A stretch of DNA of 64,000 nt from the NCBI GenBank assembly GCA_910575705.1, contig CAJTFG010000001.1, forward strand, positions 558,001 to 622,000. Direction: 5' to 3'. The notes beneath the pieces are model-generated. The model made no database searches. It had not been told where the DNA came from and was given only the letters and a program-made list of their open reading frames with translations. Of the stretch, positions 20,480 to 64,000 are shown piece after piece. This DNA comes from Erysipelotrichales bacterium (GTDB lineage: Bacteria > Bacillota_I > Bacilli_A > Erysipelotrichales > Erysipelotrichaceae). Both the position numbers and the translations under genes were made by a program. Each line of letters opens with the position of its first letter. Within the stretch, counting starts at the first letter, position 1.

Positions 20480-20739
20480 CAGAGCCGGACGCTGATAGAG
20501 ACCGGAGATATCCGATATATTATCGATTGTTCGACTAGTAAGATCAAGGCGACCTTTGGAATGTGCTGTTGCGGCATTTTGTATTCCGCTTGGACTGGAA
20601 TCCCATGCTTCTTCCCAAGGCTTTTGAGGCATAATACGAGGCCATGACATATTGGGTATTGCGGGAACTTCACAATTACTATCCGAATCAATACAATCAT
20701 TTTGCAAGGGGATCGTGTGGGCATATACAGAAATCGTGC
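20480..20739 (-). other. Variable cassette V1
   Basis: 5' box 20728-20739, 3' box 20480-20494, core 233 nt. The frame reads TISVYAHTIPLQND to GLYQRPALH without a stop. It has no hairpin element after the 3' box, where it abuts the host gene's end. The core is homologous to decayed V9. Its 5' flank is of the type encoding LFKAIGLGF. Confidence 0.8.
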
Positions 20740-20823: not shown

Positions 20824-21093
20824 CCTCTGCATTGCATACCCCATGATAATGCTTATTATAATGATCGGATGCATTTATCAGAGCCGGACGCTGTACTCTG
20901 GTACTTCCAATGGAGTTAGAAGCAGAATCCCCGATATCTCCCCTGTTGGATGTAACATAAACAGGAAGACTTCGATTGGAGAAACTGGACATGTAGAAAA
21001 GCTCATAAGTACCGTTGGTAGTTTTCCATTGCAGATTTCGATCATAAGATTGTGCAAAAGTATATGCAATATAATGATGATAAGAAATCGTGC
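20824..21093 (-). other. Variable cassette V2
   Basis: 5' box 21082-21093 (one base changed), 3' box 20879-20893, core 188 nt. The open frame goes from TISYHHYIAY to RVQRPALINAS. The inverted-repeat element (20824-20878) is imperfect. It abuts the 5' flank of V1, so the two lie head to tail. Confidence 0.8.
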
Positions 21094-31878: not shown

Positions 31879-32217
31879 CCTCTGTATGGTATACAGAACT
31901 ATGATGCTTATCATAGTTATCTTACATCAACAGAGCCGGACGCTGTATACGATGTACATACGTATTGTTCAAGCTGCTTCCGGGATAAAAGATATAATAG
32001 CCGGAATTGCCGATTGTCCATGCGCCACCTGAAGGAGAACCATAAGGCCTCACTATAGGAGTTGATGTCCAAGATTCATCATATAAGAATCCGTTAGAAA
32101 CCGACCAAGATAGAACAGGCAGTAAGTTTCCATTGCAAAACTGAGGACCTGCGTTCGTGCCAACTGAACAGCTTGTCGTATAAACAGGAAGTACTTTACC
32201 ATAGGCAGAAATCGTGC
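31879..32217 (-). other. Variable cassette V3
   Basis: 5' box 32206-32217, 3' box 31931-31945, core 260 nt, open from TISAYGKVLPVYTT to HRIQRPALLM. Inner arms of the end element are AACTATGAT and ATCATAGTT. The core resembles V17 (DESWTSTPIV versus EEIWMSTPIA). The 5' flank continues in frame as GRLFILLFPSWISYS, shared with V8 and V10. Confidence 0.85.
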
Positions 32218-32415: not shown

Positions 32416-32712
32416 CCTCTATGTCTTATATAGAATCATAATACCTATTATAGCTTTCTAATTTATACAGAGCCGGACGCTGATAGGAATAATTGCGTGC
32501 AGATGAAGAGCCGGTGCTTAAGGCATCAGGCACTCCTAATGGAGAAATTGCACTGGCCCATTTTCGAGGATCTTCATTCGGGCGATAACTAGAGTTCCAG
32601 TAGCATTCAAACTGAATTGAGGTAAATGGTTTCCAGCGAAAATATAAATCTTGACTTCCGTTCCAGCTAACACCCGAAATCACAAATATTCGGTGATAGA
32701 CAGAAATCGTGC
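32416..32712 (-). other. Variable cassette V4
   Basis: 5' box 32701-32712, 3' box 32468-32482, core 218 nt. The open frame runs TISVYHRIFVISGVSWN to ARNYSYQRPALY and continues through the hairpin as KLESYNRYYDSI. Inner arms ATAAT and ATTAT. Its 5' flank matches that of V7 on the other strand. Confidence 0.85.
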
Positions 32713-32867: not shown

Positions 32868-33174
32868 CCTCTGTATGCTATGTGAAATTATAATGCTTAC
32901 TATAATTATTTATTATACCTACTATGGATTATATACAGAGCCGGACGCTGATGAAAGCCTTCTTTTGAGTTTAGGTTAGGATAATCATGTCCCGGTCTAC
33001 CTTTAATATCCCATGCAAAGGAACCTGATGAATAAGAAGATGAGCCCCATACAGTATCATATACATAATTGGTTTCGCTATATTGGAAATATAAATCGTT
33101 GACATTATTACATAACCCTCCGCTGCAATGTGCCAGCGGTTTATAAACGATGTTATGAAATACGGAAATCGTGC
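32868..33174 (-). other. Variable cassette V5
   Basis: 5' box 33163-33174 (one base changed), 3' box 32936-32950, core 212 nt, open from TISVFHNIVYKPLAHCSGG to EGFHQRPALY. Inner arms AATTATA and TATAATT around ATGCTTAC, with an extra 17 nt before the 3' box as in V20. Confidence 0.85.
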
Positions 33175-41960: not shown

Positions 41961-42260
41961 GCACGATTTCTGTTGCCGATTTCACCATTGTAAAACCTGC
42001 TTGGTCATTAAAAGGAAGTTCGGTGTCTTCTTTGAACTGGATACCAATGGGATATGGAGATGGGGAATCCTTTTGGTTAAGTAGTATAACCGTTCTTTCC
42101 GATTTTCAGCGTAGAGCTGCTTTTGTAGGATACAACGGTGCTATTGATGAATCTTGGACAAGTGAATACCGACAAGACTTAGGAATTGCTTTTCAGCGTC
42201 CGGCTCTGTACATATTCGACAATTATAATAGGGATTATAATTCTACATAAGATACAGAGG
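41961..42260 (+). other. Variable cassette V6
   Basis: 5' box 41961-41972, 3' box 42194-42208, core 221 nt. The frame is open for 114 codons from an ATG at 41906 through TISVADFTIVKP and IAFQRPALYIFDNYNRDYNST. Inner arms are AATTATAAT and ATTATAATT (loop AGGG), the longest perfect pair in the set. Confidence 0.85.
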
Positions 42261-42322: not shown

Positions 42323-42643
42323 GCACGATTTCTTATCATCAGAGGATATCGGTTACCCATTCAACTGGCTGTACTGCTCTGTACGAATGCACCGGCAATT
42401 TGAATCCCGCTTTCTATTATCCTTCGATCCTAAGAGTAGATTGGGAATTAAATTGGAGTTCATCTGCCGGAAACCATTCCTTTGCATCTACCATTCCTAT
42501 TTACTACGGCCAGTCCGGTTATAACTGCATCAATCTCGGCGCACATTTTGAAGCCCACCCTAGCATTACTATGTATCAGCGTCCGGCTCTGTTATTATGA
42601 AATGACGGCAGTAAGCATTGTCGTCTTATGTAAAATACAGAGG
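42323..42643 (+). other. Variable cassette V7
   Basis: 5' box 42323-42334 (last base T), 3' box 42577-42591, core 242 nt, open from TISYHQRISVTHSTG to TMYQRPALLL. Inner arms are GACGGCA and TGTCGTC, G/C-bearing unlike the others but still paired with one G-T. It lies head to tail with V6. Confidence 0.85.
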
Positions 42644-45302: not shown

Positions 45303-45309
45303 TGACGAT

Positions 45310-45617
45310 CCTCTGTATGTTATTTGAACTATGATGCCTATCATAGCTATCCAATATGTGCAGAGCCGGACGCTGCCAGTGATATATGAAAGAAGAGGCA
45401 TGGTCGATAACACTATAGCCGCTAAAAGAATGTCCATATATAAAGCGAGTGGTAGAGGCAGTGGAACCGGGAGTAAACTGAGGTTTACGATCTGGGAGAT
45501 TTTGTAAAGAGTAGTGAAAAGAGGTGTCTCTGCTGGCATCGTTTTGACATGAACCGTCAATTATTGAGCATGAACCACCTGCAATAACTTTAATTTGATG
45601 ATGAACAGAAATCGTGC
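45310..45617 (-). other. Variable cassette V8
   Basis: 5' box 45606-45617, 3' box 45361-45375, core 230 nt, open from TISVHHQIKVIAGGSC to IYHWQRPALHILDSYDRHHSS. The 66 nt at its 3' end (45310-45375) are identical to those of V10, and the 5' flank is also shared, yet the cores differ. Confidence 0.9.
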
Positions 45618-45720
45618 TATAGCTGATCCAAGAAGGGAAAAAGAAGATAGAAAGCCTACCCATAAGAAAAGAATACCAGATAATATTGAAATAAATTCTA
45701 GTAAATATTGGAAATAAAAA

Positions 45721-46032
45721 CCTCTGTATCTTATATAGAACCATAATACGTATTACAGTTATCAAATGTATACACAACCGGACACTGAAAGTATGCCCAA
45801 TCTGCACCTATTGTGTGAATTGTAAAATTCGTAAGGTAAATACGTTCTTTGGAATATGTGTCTGCCGCTTGCCGCGGTCCGATTGGTGTAGAATCCCATG
45901 CTATTTCTCAGTGCTTTTGTGGCATAACGCGGGGCCATGATATGTTTACCAGTGCGGGTGTTCGGTATTGAGATTCCGGTAGACTGCATGTATCATGCTG
46001 CACTACAAGGTTGTTATGAACAGAAATCATGC
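45721..46032 (-). other. Variable cassette V9, decayed
   Basis: Both boxes are mutated (3' box CACAACCGGACACTG at 45773-45787; 5' box with ATCATGC at 46021-46032). The core is 233 nt, the same length as V1, and shares ISWPRVMPQK and AWDSTPIG with V1's MSWPRIMPQK and AWDSSPSG. A TGA replaces V1's Trp codon after MPQK, and QRPALY reads QCPVVY. A homologous copy in decay. Confidence 0.75.
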
Positions 46033-46180
46033 GCCTTACAATGGAACTCCTAACCTCTTTTCATTTCTATCCACCATATTAAGCGAACTCCAATCTAATC
46101 ATTTTAAACAAGGTTCCCCTTATGCATAAAATTCTATCCTCATGTTTCCCTTCTCCTCACCTTTGTGACCGAACACCAAT

Positions 46181-46473
46181 CCTCTGTATGTTATTTGAAC
46201 TATGATGCCTATCATAGCTATCCAATATGTGCAGAGCCGGACGCTGATATCTGGTATCGTGTATCACAGCCATACCACAATCAATATTCCCAAGTTGGTA
46301 AATAGCCCCAACTGTCTTGAGGATGAGTCTATCTTCGCGAATTCCCGGAGAAGAAAGGAAAGCACCTTCGAAGGAATTTTCAGGAAGCAATGCCCATTGA
46401 AATACTGGATCTGATGTTCCTGAGAAATTGGCGCCGACAATAGGGATTATTTTATGCCTAAGAGAAATCGTGC
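46181..46473 (-). other. Variable cassette V10
   Basis: 5' box 46462-46473 (first base changed), 3' box 46232-46246, core 215 nt. It is open for 131 codons from an ATG at 46552 (MISIIICYPFYKGRLF) through TISLRHKIIPIVGAN and DTRYQRPALH. The hydrophobic N-terminus encoded by the 5' flank could be a membrane anchor. Confidence 0.9.
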
Positions 46474-46555
46474 TATAGCTGATCCAAGAAGGGAACAAGA
46501 GAATGAAAAGCCTACCTTTATAGAAAGGATAACAGATAATGATAGAGATCATATA

Positions 46556-50955: not shown

Positions 50956-51227
50956 GCACGATTTCTGTGCATCATGAAATATGTATTATATTATACGAAA
51001 GCAAAGATCCATATTTTCAATTTTCTCCTTTTTCTTCTGCCGATGAAAATAAAGTATATTTGGGCTCACCGGATATTCATCAACTGGATCACGGAAATGC
51101 TTTTGGATTCAAAAATGATGGTTTGATATGGTGTCCATCCGTTCCGTCCGTGAGATATGCTCAGCGTCCGGCTCTGTATCGTTTAAACAGTATAGTATGC
51201 ATTATGCTGACATATGAATACAGAGGA
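50956..51227 (+). other. Variable cassette V11
   Basis: 5' box 50956-50967, 3' box 51162-51176, core 194 nt. The frame from a TTG at 50916 (behind AAGGGG) reads LFKAIGLGFHYNEGTISVHH to VRYAQRPALYRLNS and is open for 112 codons. Inner arms CAGTATA and TATGCTG. This is the best-preserved example of the LFKAIGLGF 5' flank. Confidence 0.9.
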
Positions 51228-51325
51228 ACATTATATTATAATAATGGAATATAATATTATTTTATTTTATGAAAAAAATGAGGATATGGTATACTATAAC
51301 TGTTGTATTTAAAAGGAGTGGTTTT

Positions 51326-53215: not shown

Positions 53216-53512
53216 CCTCTGTGTGTTATGTAGAGCTACGATACTTACCATAGCTACCGAATATGTACAGAGCCGGACGCTGTAGGCGATTGTTTTCACG
53301 AGATTGCCCTGCATATGTGGAGCCTCCCGTATGAGTGATCGCATAAACACTGCGTGTTCCATAAGCAGCAGAGTTAAGAGGAGTTGAATGAAACATCCAA
53401 TCTCCGTATGGGGATATCGGAAGAATGCTTTCCCATTGTAAAGCTGTGTCTTTTGATCCCTTGTCAGCACCTTGCATGTTTACCGATATTTGATGATACA
53501 CAGAAATCGTGC
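53216..53512 (-). other. Variable cassette V12
   Basis: 5' box 53501-53512, 3' box 53268-53282, core 218 nt, open from TISVYHQISVNMQGADK to NNRLQRPALYIFGSYGKYRSST. It contains FQW-like LQWESILP and the STPL motif seen in several other cores. Inner arms are partly mispaired. Confidence 0.85.
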
Positions 53513-53631
53513 CCCGAAAGTGACCGAACCACTATATTAAGCGAACCCCAATCCTCACAATGTCAAACGAACCCCTCATCCTCACCATATTAACCGAATC
53601 CCTTTCCTCACCTTTGTGACCGAACCCCAAT
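53513..53631 (-). repeat. Tandem short phrases in the 5' flanks of V12/V13
   Basis: Units of about 26-30 nt ending in variants of AACGAACCCCAATCCTCACC follow one another (53520-53631). The same phrase family recurs at 55624-55810, 63061-63184, 46040-46180 and 32335-32410, in different combinations. Confidence 0.6.
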
Positions 53632-53903
53632 CCTCTGTATGTTGTTTGAACTATGATACCTATCATAGTTATCTTAGATCATCAGAGCCGGACGCTGGGA
53701 TGTTATATATTTGGTATACGTATAGTTCATCCAGCCATGCCCATCGCGCATTAAGTTCCAGAAGCACGTAGGATGCCCTTCCCATAGAACAAAGGTAGAC
53801 ATGGATACCGGCATATCGGTTTGATAACGCAAACTGTTGTCAAAACCGGTTGTTGTGTCATTTCCATAGCTGGCTAAGATATAGTGATATTGTGAAATCG
53901 TGC
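53632..53903 (-). other. Variable cassette V13
   Basis: 5' box 53892-53903 (GTGAAATCGTGC), 3' box 53683-53697, core 194 nt, open from TISQYHYILASYGN to YITSQRPALMI and stop. Inner arms AACTATGAT and ATCATAGTT. It belongs with V16 and V19 by its end element. Confidence 0.85.
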
Positions 53904-53934: not shown

Positions 53935-54247
53935 CCTTTGCAAGCCATACGACATTGTAATACCTACTACAATATATGGATATGATACAAAGCCGGACGC
54001 TGATAAGGTTCTGTTTGTGAAGTGTTTCCCATAACCGAAGCAGTACCTAGATATCGAATTGCATATGCGGATTTAGGAACCCATTGTTTTCCAACGACGA
54101 CAGGGGAGGCTTCATAAAATGTATTATGACAGTCCGTGAGACCTGGATCAGGCTGAAAAATAGATTTCCATTGAAAGGAAACGTCTGCACTTCCGGTGTT
54201 ATTAGCTCCCATAACTACAGGAATTCTATGATGTACAGAAATCGTGC
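53935..54247 (-). other. Variable cassette V14
   Basis: 5' box 54236-54247, 3' box 53988-54002 (one change), core 233 nt, open from TISVHHRIPVVMGANNTG to TEPYQRPALYHIHIL. The end element diverges (CCTTTGCAA for CCTCTGTAT), yet the inner arms still pair: ATTGTA and TACAAT. Confidence 0.85.
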
Positions 54248-55414: not shown

Positions 55415-55623
55415 CAGAGCCGGACGCTGTTGTCTTGGCTTTACGGGAGCACCGTATACCGGAGAGTTGGCGCTTCCGTTTTGCAGCCATAGACCCCGTG
55501 AGGAATTGTATTGAAAAGAAGAAGTGGATAATGGAACATATAGAGAAGAAGAGGGGTATGCTGGGACACGCATATACGATTGCTTGTCTTTAACAGCGAT
55601 TGTCTGACAGACAGAAATCGTGT
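55415..55623 (-). other. Variable cassette V15
   Basis: 5' box 55612-55623 (last base changed), 3' box 55415-55429, core 182 nt, open from TISVCQTIAVKDKQSY to RQQRPALHITI and stop. Like V1 it lacks the nested inverted-repeat element and abuts the end of the preceding gene. Confidence 0.85.
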
Positions 55624-55810
55624 CTCCAAAGCGACCGAACCTCTGCCCTCACCATGTCAAACGAACCTCTGTCCTCTTTTCATTTCTATCCACCATATTA
55701 AGCGAACTCCAATCCTTACCGCTTTAAACGAATCCCAGTCCGAGTTTTAAACACAGTTCCTCTTATGTATAAAATTCTACCATTTCCTCACCATTTGAAC
55801 GAATCCCGTT
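55624..55810 (-). repeat. Longest run of tandem flank phrases
   Basis: At least six related units lie between V15 and V16 (GACCGAACCTCTGCCCTC, AACGAACCTCTGTCCTC, AGCGAACTCCAATCC, AACGAATCCCAGTCC and others). No gene fits here. The pattern looks like successive 5' ends left behind. Confidence 0.6.
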
Positions 55811-56103
55811 CCTCTGCATGTTATTTGAACTATGATACCTATCATAGTTATCTCATTTCATCAGAGCCGGACGCTGAGAGTGATTGGAAGCAGTTGTGAC
55901 AATATCGGACCATACAGAGCCATTGCCGGCGTACCACATAACGGATCTATTTGCGAATGTATTATTATGATAAACAGTAGAATAGGTACTGGCAAAAAGA
56001 CGTTCGCCCTCTGTTGCTTGTCCGAAGCGAAAAGAGGCATCAAGGGAGGCATTACCGGCGACTCCTGCTTTTGTGAGAATATGATGGCTGTAAGAAATCG
56101 TGC
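55811..56103 (-). other. Variable cassette V16
   Basis: 5' box 56092-56103 (first base changed), 3' box 55862-55876, core 215 nt, open from TISYSHHILTKAGVAGN to ASNHSQRPALMK and stop. Inner arms AACTATGAT and ATCATAGTT. Confidence 0.85.
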
Positions 56104-62226: not shown

Positions 62227-62551
62227 CCTCTGTATTTTATATAGAACTATGATGCTTACCTCAGTTATCTAATATGTACAGAGCCGGACGCTGAAGTCGT
62301 GTTACCCATGCTAGGTTTCCAGTGTTAGCAGGATAAGAAAGAACATAACCGGAACTCCCCATATTCCATGCTCCGCTTTGATTGCCCACATTTGTTGATG
62401 CAATAGGTGTAGACATCCATATTTCTTCAAAAGGCACATTGTGTGTGATCTTCCACTCTGTAGCCGATACTTCACTTCCTGTACAAGAGAGCGGACCATC
62501 TTCACATAAGGATGGGGTTGGAATAATGTTGCTATATATAGAAATCGTGCT
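62227..62551 (-). other. Variable cassette V17, frameshifted
   Basis: 5' box 62540-62551 (first base changed), 3' box 62279-62293, core 246 nt, the only complete core out of step with the common frame. The frame stops after ISIYSNIIPNPILM because of one extra C near 62519; removing it restores SLCEDGPLSC to TRLQRPALY, homologous to V3. Either a recent frameshift or a sequencing error. Confidence 0.8.
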
Positions 62552-62760: not shown

Positions 62761-63060
62761 CCTCTGTATCTTATATACAACTATGATATATACCATAGTT
62801 TCCTAACATTTACAGAGCCGGACGCTGAAGAAAGGCTGTTTCCCCAACGATATAGTGACTTGTACCTCCCATATCTGCAACACCTTGATAGCTGACCATG
62901 TAGGTCACGTTCGGTAAAGATCTATTAATGGGAGATGCCGTCCAGAAACGCTCCCAAGTGTAGTCTGGGAATGTACGGTTCCAAGCAAAAGCACGATCTC
63001 TGGAACCCTTGTCCTGAGAAGATGGCAGTATGACAATGCCGTGATGAACAGAAATCGTGC
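62761..63060 (-). other. Variable cassette V18
   Basis: 5' box 63049-63060, 3' box 62813-62827, core 221 nt, open from TISVHHGIVILPSSQDKG to TAFLQRPALYMLGNYGIYH. It shares WTASPI with the STPI/SSP motif of other cores. Inner arms AACTATG and CATAGTT around ATATATAC. Confidence 0.85.
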
Positions 63061-63184
63061 CCCCAAAGTGACCGAACCTACCTTAGAAACGAACTCCAAT
63101 CCTCACCGCTTTAAACGAATCCCAGTCCAAGTTTTAAACAAAGTTCCCCTTATGCATAAAATTCTATCTTTTTTTCTACTTTTT

Positions 63185-63444
63185 CCTCTGTATGTTATTT
63201 GAACTATAATACCTATCATAGTTATCCTAAATCATCAGAGCCGGACGCTGATAGCGAGGAGAGATAGCGCCAGGGAAACCACTGGTGCCATCGGGATGCA
63301 CTGCAAAGATCTGATTGTGTATATTGTCTGCAGGGGAAGAAGAAACTATTTCAAATTCGAAATCATTTCCTTTATAGGAGCCAAAACCTATTGATAGAAC
63401 AGCCCCATTTTTAGGAACTACCAAACTTTTTACAGAAATCGTGC
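63185..63444 (-). other. Variable cassette V19
   Basis: 5' box 63433-63444, 3' box 63236-63250, core 182 nt. It is open for 90 codons from an ATG at 63499 (MHRRILSKTIGLGFHYKV) through TISVKSLVVPKNGA to SPRYQRPALMI. An AGGAGG lies inside this start region, before an in-frame TTG. Confidence 0.85.
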
Positions 63445-63585
63445 GCACCTTATAATGGAATCCCAGTCCAATGGTTTTAGACAAGATCCTCCTATGCATA
63501 AAATTCCATCCATTATTTCATTTTAACCTACCTCTGAAATAACGATAACAGAATTTATGAGAATATGCAGGTAAAAAAGAAAGAT

Positions 63586-63892
63586 CCTCTGTATGCTATA
63601 TGAAATTATAATGCTTACTATAATTATTTATTATACCTACTATGGAATATATACAGAGCCGGACGCTGAGGATCTTCCGAATAATAAGAGTCCTGACAGT
63701 TCCAAGTAGTACCGAGATTGCCAATAGAGTAACAATGTTCGCCCATACTAGGAGAGGAAAGAGAGACAACACCATTACGAGTGAACGACAATCCTGTTAC
63801 AGGATAATAGAAAGTCCTATCAAAGCTTCCCGTTGTTCCTTTGTTGCAGTCGCCTATAATAGGGACAATAAAATGCCCGGCAGAAATCGTGC
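63586..63892 (-). other. Variable cassette V20
   Basis: 5' box 63881-63892, 3' box 63654-63668, core 212 nt, open from TISAGHFIVPIIGDCNKG to EDPQRPALYI. End element and flank are nearly identical to V5 while the core is unrelated. FYYPVTGLSF and SLSSPSMGEH fit the shared core pattern. Confidence 0.9.
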
Positions 63893-63913: not shown

Positions 63914-64000
63914 CCTCTGTATCTTATATCGAATCATAATACTTATTATAATTATCGAATATGTACAGAGCCGGACGCTGCGGATCTTGCGTCCATCGAG
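63914..64000 (-). other. Variable cassette V21 (cut by window end)
   Basis: End element and 3' box (63966-63980) present; only 20 nt of the core are seen. Inner arms ATAAT and ATTAT with loop ACTT. The array continues beyond the window. Confidence 0.8.

Follow-up and report, generated by a model that had tools for sequence, protein, structure and literature searches.

The repeated elements V8 and V10, which lie at 45308-46495 of the window (the 64,000-nt stretch of DNA analysed here, C1:558001-622000 in a genome of 1.85 Mb), are two of about 130 cassettes. Each cassette consists, in order, of a short upstream border, GCACGATTTC, an open core of 54-92 codons, a downstream border, CAGCGTCCGGCTCTG, and a conserved hairpin predicted to form in RNA. 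The cores are almost certainly copied into one gene that encodes a giant surface protein, as judged from the identity between that gene and a cassette. The copying machinery is probably a DGR-derived reverse transcriptase (RT) and Avd pair, which would have turned from a mutator into an accurate copier of a template library with this giant surface gene as its one target. Below, we describe the library, the expression site and the RT-Avd locus, and weigh this reading against alternative explanations.

A genome-wide library of cassettes

A whole-genome pattern search for the downstream border (CAGCGTCCGGCTYTR, at most one mismatch) returns 139 copies against 0 for a reversed-pattern control, which places the sequence sharing between V8 and V10 far beyond chance. 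A recognisable core is present in 128 copies, one of them the expression site; this number is a lower bound drawn from the DNA stretches fetched, whereas the 139 border copies come from the search of the whole genome. The upstream border starts 127 of the 128 cores, the median core length is 76 codons, and at 80% DNA identity the cores form 104 clusters. Cassettes are distributed over 64 loci, either singly or in arrays of up to seven, with one orientation per array and a median spacing of 419 nt. Scanning the genome with a covariance model of border and hairpin yields 124 full-length sense copies. The hairpin model has no matches in 272 further genomes from the family that were searched, and searches for relatives by DNA, by the N-terminus of the giant protein and by the hairpin model return essentially none. 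Plasmid and phage collections gave no DNA match, and an Rfam gathering scan of the window gave no match.

V8 and V10 as members of the library

The functional strand of V8 and V10 is the minus strand. The 5'/3' orientation assigned in the earlier note is therefore inverted: the 'CAGCGTCCGGCTCTG + palindrome' is the downstream end of each cassette, and 'CCCTTCTTGGATCAGCTATAGCACGATTTC' the upstream end. Read on the minus strand, V8 begins with the upstream border at 45608-45617, the same 10 nt found in 127 of 128 cassettes. Its 232-nt core (45376-45607) is an open frame, TISVHHQIKVIAGGSCSIIDGS...IYHW followed by QRPAL, which is silent and attached to no gene. QRPAL is encoded by the downstream border at 45361-45375, which occupies an IMH-like position, and the predicted RNA hairpin at 45309-45365, in sense with the core, has an outer stem and an 8-bp apical stem closed by a 4-nt loop. 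V10 has the same layout, with an upstream border at 46464-46473, a 217-nt core at 46247-46463 (open frame TISLRHKIIPIVGANFSGTSD...HDTRY, then QRPAL), a downstream border at 46232-46246 and, at 46180-46236, a hairpin identical to that of V8. Both open frames have TIS at the start and QRPAL at the end, and the V10 core is 96% identical to the core of cassette C1:631107 and 90% identical to that of C1:648833.

The identity between 45310-45375 and 46181-46246 that first drew attention to the pair is confirmed, and its true extent is 68 nt (45308-45375 and 46179-46246). A matching flank had also been noted at the other end; it measures 33 nt (45607-45639 and 46463-46495), includes TATAGCTGATCCAAGAAGGG and spans the upstream border. 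Between these flanks the cores are, as claimed, unrelated in DNA, with a local alignment score of 15 against a shuffled mean of 17.1 and 440 of 500 shuffles equalling it. Simple tandem duplication of V8 and V10 is ruled out, since the cores align no better than shuffled sequence. Whole-core homology at normal divergence, which the earlier note had named as the sign of such a duplication, fails at the DNA level; the cores belong to one very diverged protein family, detected in 95 of 102 cases, which likewise speaks against a simple duplication.

Between V8 and V10 lies V9 (45720-46032, minus strand), a decaying cassette with a stop in its core. Both of its borders are altered, the downstream one to CAGTGTCCGGTTGTG (QCPVV) and the upstream one to ATGATTTC, and its hairpin is intact. 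The inter-cassette DNA upstream of cores, for example at window positions 45640-45720, is modular, with ATTGGACTGGGGTTCCATTATAAGG, GAAATTTTATGCATAAGG and similar blocks variously combined.

Exchange of cores between fixed borders

Two explanations had been offered for identical flanks around different cores, namely the exchange of cores between fixed ends and the homogenisation of flanks by recombination. The first holds genome-wide. Cores more than 86% alike occur in 17 cassette pairs; in 15 of these the upstream flanks (60 nt) are only 42-59% alike, and random pairs have a median similarity of 50% with a 95th percentile of 64%. The downstream flanks of the same 17 pairs are mostly at background too. 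In the 14 pairs first examined, exact identity mostly ends 0-2 nt from the upstream border. In four pairs the cores match at 100%. Three of these pairs are embedded in unrelated sequence on either side; in the remaining one (C1:489543 and C1:621980) only the downstream flank is common to both members. Homogenisation of flanks alone cannot yield identical cores inside unrelated flanks. V8 and V10 present the converse pattern, unrelated cores inside identical flanks, and both patterns are what the replacement of whole cores between fixed borders would produce, in cassettes and gene alike. Judged by sequence comparison, cores and flanks assort independently and cores move as units. Substitutions between related cassettes are of the transition type and have no adenine bias (288 involving A, 299 others).

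Cores are silent protein segments

Several features indicate that the cores are maintained as protein-coding sequence. Firstly, they contain 2 stops in 9,647 codons; in the first 108 cores examined, the coding frame has 3 stops versus 285-551 in each of the other five frames. Secondly, pN/pS is 0.30 for substitutions between 15 related core pairs among those first 108 cores. Stops are common immediately outside the borders, indicating that the cores are not ordinary genes, and selection on silent cores as protein requires their repeated passage through an expressed gene. Finally, when profiles are built from four-fifths of the cores, 95 of the 102 cores left out are recovered at E<0.01, and 0 reversed decoys are hit. 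The cores are one very diverged protein domain, mostly without DNA similarity between members. Its recurrent residues are TIS at the beginning, SSP and G mid-domain and QRPAL at the end.

Pfam searches of the cores and of the giant protein's variable domain returned nothing meaningful, and NCBIfam searches of the variable domain and a PDB profile search returned no match. An hhalign comparison of the cores with canonical DGR VR domains shows weak similarity (probability 11%); a C-type-lectin fold of the target was assessed by these sequence profiles.

A giant surface-protein gene is the expression site

The cores are coding on the strand opposite to that considered in the earlier note, and a single expression site receives them; both points had been missed. 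This site is a gene at C3:197065-176531 encoding a protein of 6,844 residues whose start resembles a signal peptide and whose C-terminus carries a membrane anchor. Cassette borders and a core occupy approximately residues 309-390. Over 247 nt (15 + 215 + 17) the gene equals cassette C1:632819, about 10.8 kb past the right end of the window, with 0 mismatches, and all 65 adenines of the copied core are unchanged. There is no similarity between gene and cassette on either side of this identity. The cassette hairpin is absent from the giant gene and, unlike in BPP-1 targets, no clear stem-loop follows the border. Among the loci inspected, no second copy is continuous with a large gene across both borders. 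One expressed gene accompanied by silent partial copies is the arrangement that characterises silent-cassette systems such as vls and pil.

Five cassettes (C1:519084, C2:118932, C1:395967, C1:347305 and C1:620293) have a longer upstream sequence in common with the giant gene, TCAATACCCAAGTACTTGGATCAGC, and four of these also match it further upstream (ACCTATGGATC.. or similar), as though the expression site had been the source of these copies. The gene directly upstream of the giant gene, on the same strand, encodes an ECF-type sigma factor that has a long extension at its C-terminus (PF08281; L029 4182-5258, on C3); this factor may control the expression site.

A conserved hairpin and a promoter-like motif flank the cores

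The hairpin downstream of the cores is conserved. In an alignment of 54 copies, 95.1% of cells are paired, and compensatory changes with both sides altered are seen at 8 pairs in 52 cells. None of 500 shuffles reaches any of five measures, and the structure collapses when slid. On the coding strand, the apical stem has G-U in 65 cells versus A-C in 8 (74 sequences), or 53 versus 7 when 59 distinct haplotypes are counted. A DNA cruciform would not be expected to distinguish G-U from A-C, so the excess favours sense RNA over a cruciform. Together these patterns point to a conserved RNA in sense with the core. The loops are mostly AAGN or AGGN. Some cassettes are followed by a longer hairpin of about 83 nt, a second variant that lies, for example, at window positions 32884-32950 and 63585-63668. 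At the other end, an extended -10 motif (TGnTAnnnT) followed by an AAGGTAG-type sequence precedes 22 of 63 leading cassettes versus a mean of 0.2 in Markov-shuffled flanks, an excess that is somewhat flattered because the motif was chosen on the same data on which it was tested.

An orphan RT and Avd of DGR type

The genome has a single PF00078 match (E 2e-16), an RT gene at C2:179012-180247. It is preceded, across a 12-nt gap, by an avd gene (PF22296, bAvd, E 1.1e-11), and the pair spans C2:179012-180805, on a different contig from the cassettes of the window (C1). No template repeat is present at the RT locus, which has no similarity to any fetched cassette or target DNA. The closest RTs, 42-45% identical in amino acids, are DGR RTs from uncultured gut Tenericutes and Clostridia assemblies, and Avd is about 40% identical to the Avd of these canonical DGR relatives. 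The orphan RT keeps the SQ of motif 4 and YMDD, and its assignment to the DGR clade is by nearest relatives.

The nearest relatives are canonical DGRs with the layout avd, 80-nt TR, RT and target, and nearly all their TR/VR mismatches fall at template adenines (for example 12 of 12, 13 of 13 and 12 of 13). Their VRs end in ARPAL, the cassettes in QRPAL. After the TR they have a 9-bp hairpin whose loop, AAGN or AGGT, is like the AAGN/AGGN loops of the cassettes. The cassette covariance model, R1, does not find these canonical spacer hairpins at a meaningful E-value, so the likeness of the loops is a resemblance, its homology unproven. A further relative in the same family, L162 (G277:C554), has an Avd 44% identical to the orphan one beside a DUF6273 protein ending ..GAVRPSLRIHP; this protein, at the contig end, is apparently a canonical DGR target.

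The sequence (I/V/L)GxxxSQ is the signature of DGR RTs, and a role in setting adenine infidelity has been proposed for it (PMC3521204). The orphan RT departs from it: its motif 4 is QGNLVSQ, with Q at a position that I, L or V occupies in 76 of the 77 readable relatives. Accurate RTs have Q in motif 4, in the form QGxxxSP. The glutamine may be what spares the adenines in the copied core. A classical DGR with adenine mutagenesis is ruled out by the 0 mismatches over 247 nt and the absence of an A bias between cassettes.

A proposed mechanism and its alternatives

In BPP-1, the folded spacer after TR recruits bRT-Avd, and cDNA synthesis starts at the IMH* border (PMC12875486), while 8 bp of identity is enough at the upstream end for homing (PMC3240598). 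The short upstream identity, the core, the GC-rich border and the RNA hairpin of the cassettes fit each of these steps, which suggests that RT-Avd copies the RNA of a cassette and that the copy homes into the giant gene; we consider this RNA route likely. Each cassette would represent an alternative 54-92-residue segment of the giant protein's amino-terminal variable domain. It would be transcribed in the sense of the core, starting near AAGGTAGG and reading through the hairpin, so that the RNA carries the hairpin just past CAGCGTCCGGCTCTG. The orphan Avd and DGR-type RT would copy this RNA, starting at the border or hairpin, and the cDNA would take the place of the resident core, either in the giant gene or in another cassette, by means of the matching 15-nt downstream border and at least 10 nt of upstream border. 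Switching may alter the binding or recognition of the surface protein. In evolutionary terms, a DGR would have given up its private template along with its adenine infidelity and become an accurate cassette switcher.

The most serious alternative is gene conversion at the DNA level, through homologous recombination of the RecA type or another kind, as in vlsE and pilE/pilS, with the hairpin and RT-Avd uninvolved. A 247-nt exact copy without adenine mutations could arise in this way, and cassette switching by such a route is well known (PMC2632889, PMC11499132). We nevertheless regard it as rather improbable here, since many cassettes share only about 10 nt upstream and 15 nt downstream with the target. 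Identities of this length are short for RecA-type exchange. Furthermore, exchange at the fixed borders involves whole cores, whereas conversion in vls affects random segments within cassettes that are about 90% alike (PMC11499132). Nor does gene conversion account for the sense-strand RNA hairpin or the cassette promoters.

Alternatively, the cassettes could be mobile elements (non-autonomous retroelements or MITE-like) that spread intergenically, with the match in the giant gene a captured fragment rather than the recipient of a donor. The 64 dispersed loci, the single-orientation arrays and the palindromic end would suit such elements, but decaying mobile repeats would not be expected to form 104 core clusters with open frames and a pN/pS of 0.30, nor does a captured fragment account for a match that runs exactly to the cassette borders and lacks the hairpin; we therefore consider this very unlikely. 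An integron-like site-specific system, in which the hairpins are folded single-strand attC-like sites and a recombinase shuffles the cores, would explain cassette arrays with an imperfect palindrome after each unit, but is hardly credible given that the core moves between borders without the hairpin, whereas an integron cassette carries its attC, and that pairing is biased to sense RNA (G-U 65, A-C 8).

Relationship to known systems

Silent-cassette switching and DGRs are each already known separately. Copying of cassettes by RT-Avd would share several features with DGRs, represented by BPP-1 and the gut avd-TR-RT-target DGRs (L176-L192): the same RT family with Avd, a VR ending in RPAL, a template RNA followed by a hairpin spacer, and a non-coding template with a coding recipient. 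Unlike DGRs, which have one adjacent TR, the present system has approximately 130 dispersed templates and an RT-Avd locus without a TR; its templates differ wholesale rather than at adenines, adenine mutagenesis is absent and the RT motif is QGxxxSQ. The Treponema denticola DGR is likewise chromosomal with targets far from the RT, and its numbers are the reverse, with one TR and seven targets (PMC4891356) against about 130 templates and one target here.

The vls/VlsE system of Borrelia similarly has many silent cassettes, one expression site and cassette-to-gene copying. The vls cassettes form contiguous array(s), have about 90% identity to the expressed cassette and undergo segmental conversion (PMC11499132). 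The cassettes described here, in contrast, occupy 64 chromosomal loci and comprise more than 100 core types, mostly without DNA similarity; the extended homology and segmental exchange typical of vls and pil are not seen, and whole cores are exchanged at two short borders of 10 and 15 nt. Integron cassettes also form arrays of units, each with an imperfect palindrome, but the present cores are internal protein segments instead of entire genes, and the palindrome does not move with them.

In the literature searched (open-licence papers), we found no DGR that combines about 130 library templates, a single target and an absence of mutagenesis. Mutagenesis at adenines has been regarded as an inherent property of DGR reverse transcriptases (PMC8144416). 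With a little more reserve than for the copying route itself, we favour placing the system in a class of non-mutagenic retroelement, in which a DGR-derived RT-Avd would install pre-made variants from about 130 transcribed template cassettes and diversity would come from an inheritable repertoire rather than random mutation. If this is correct, retrohoming has been separated from mutagenesis in nature, and motif 4 becomes directly testable as a fidelity switch. Antigenic variation by gene conversion would gain an RNA-mediated counterpart, one whose repertoire greatly exceeds that of the vls locus with its 15 silent cassettes (PMC3585125). For gene editing, a mechanism that accurately homes unrelated cores of about 160-280 nt between 10-nt and 15-nt borders would be useful. 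Exchange of this kind may also account for scattered 'same ends, different middle' repeats in other genomes.

Other cassettes in the window

The window contains further cassettes on both strands. Those on the plus strand lie at 41961-42260 (core FWLSS..AAFVGYNGAI..QRPAL), 42323-42643 and 50956-51228. On the minus strand, borders and a core are found at 20480-20739, and additional cassettes at 20879-21093, 31879-32217 and 32416-32712 (the latter two with a hairpin), 32884-33174 (with the long hairpin variant), 53216-53512, 53631-53903, 53936-54247, 55810-56103, 62227-62550, 62761-63060, 63184-63444 and 63602-63892. The minus-strand cassette at 55415-55623, like copies at C1:78569, 95838 and 221519, has borders and an open core with no hairpin match; these may be dead-end or last-in-array copies. 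The final cassette (63914-64000, minus strand) runs past the end of the window, and its core is 100% identical to that of cassette C1:489543.
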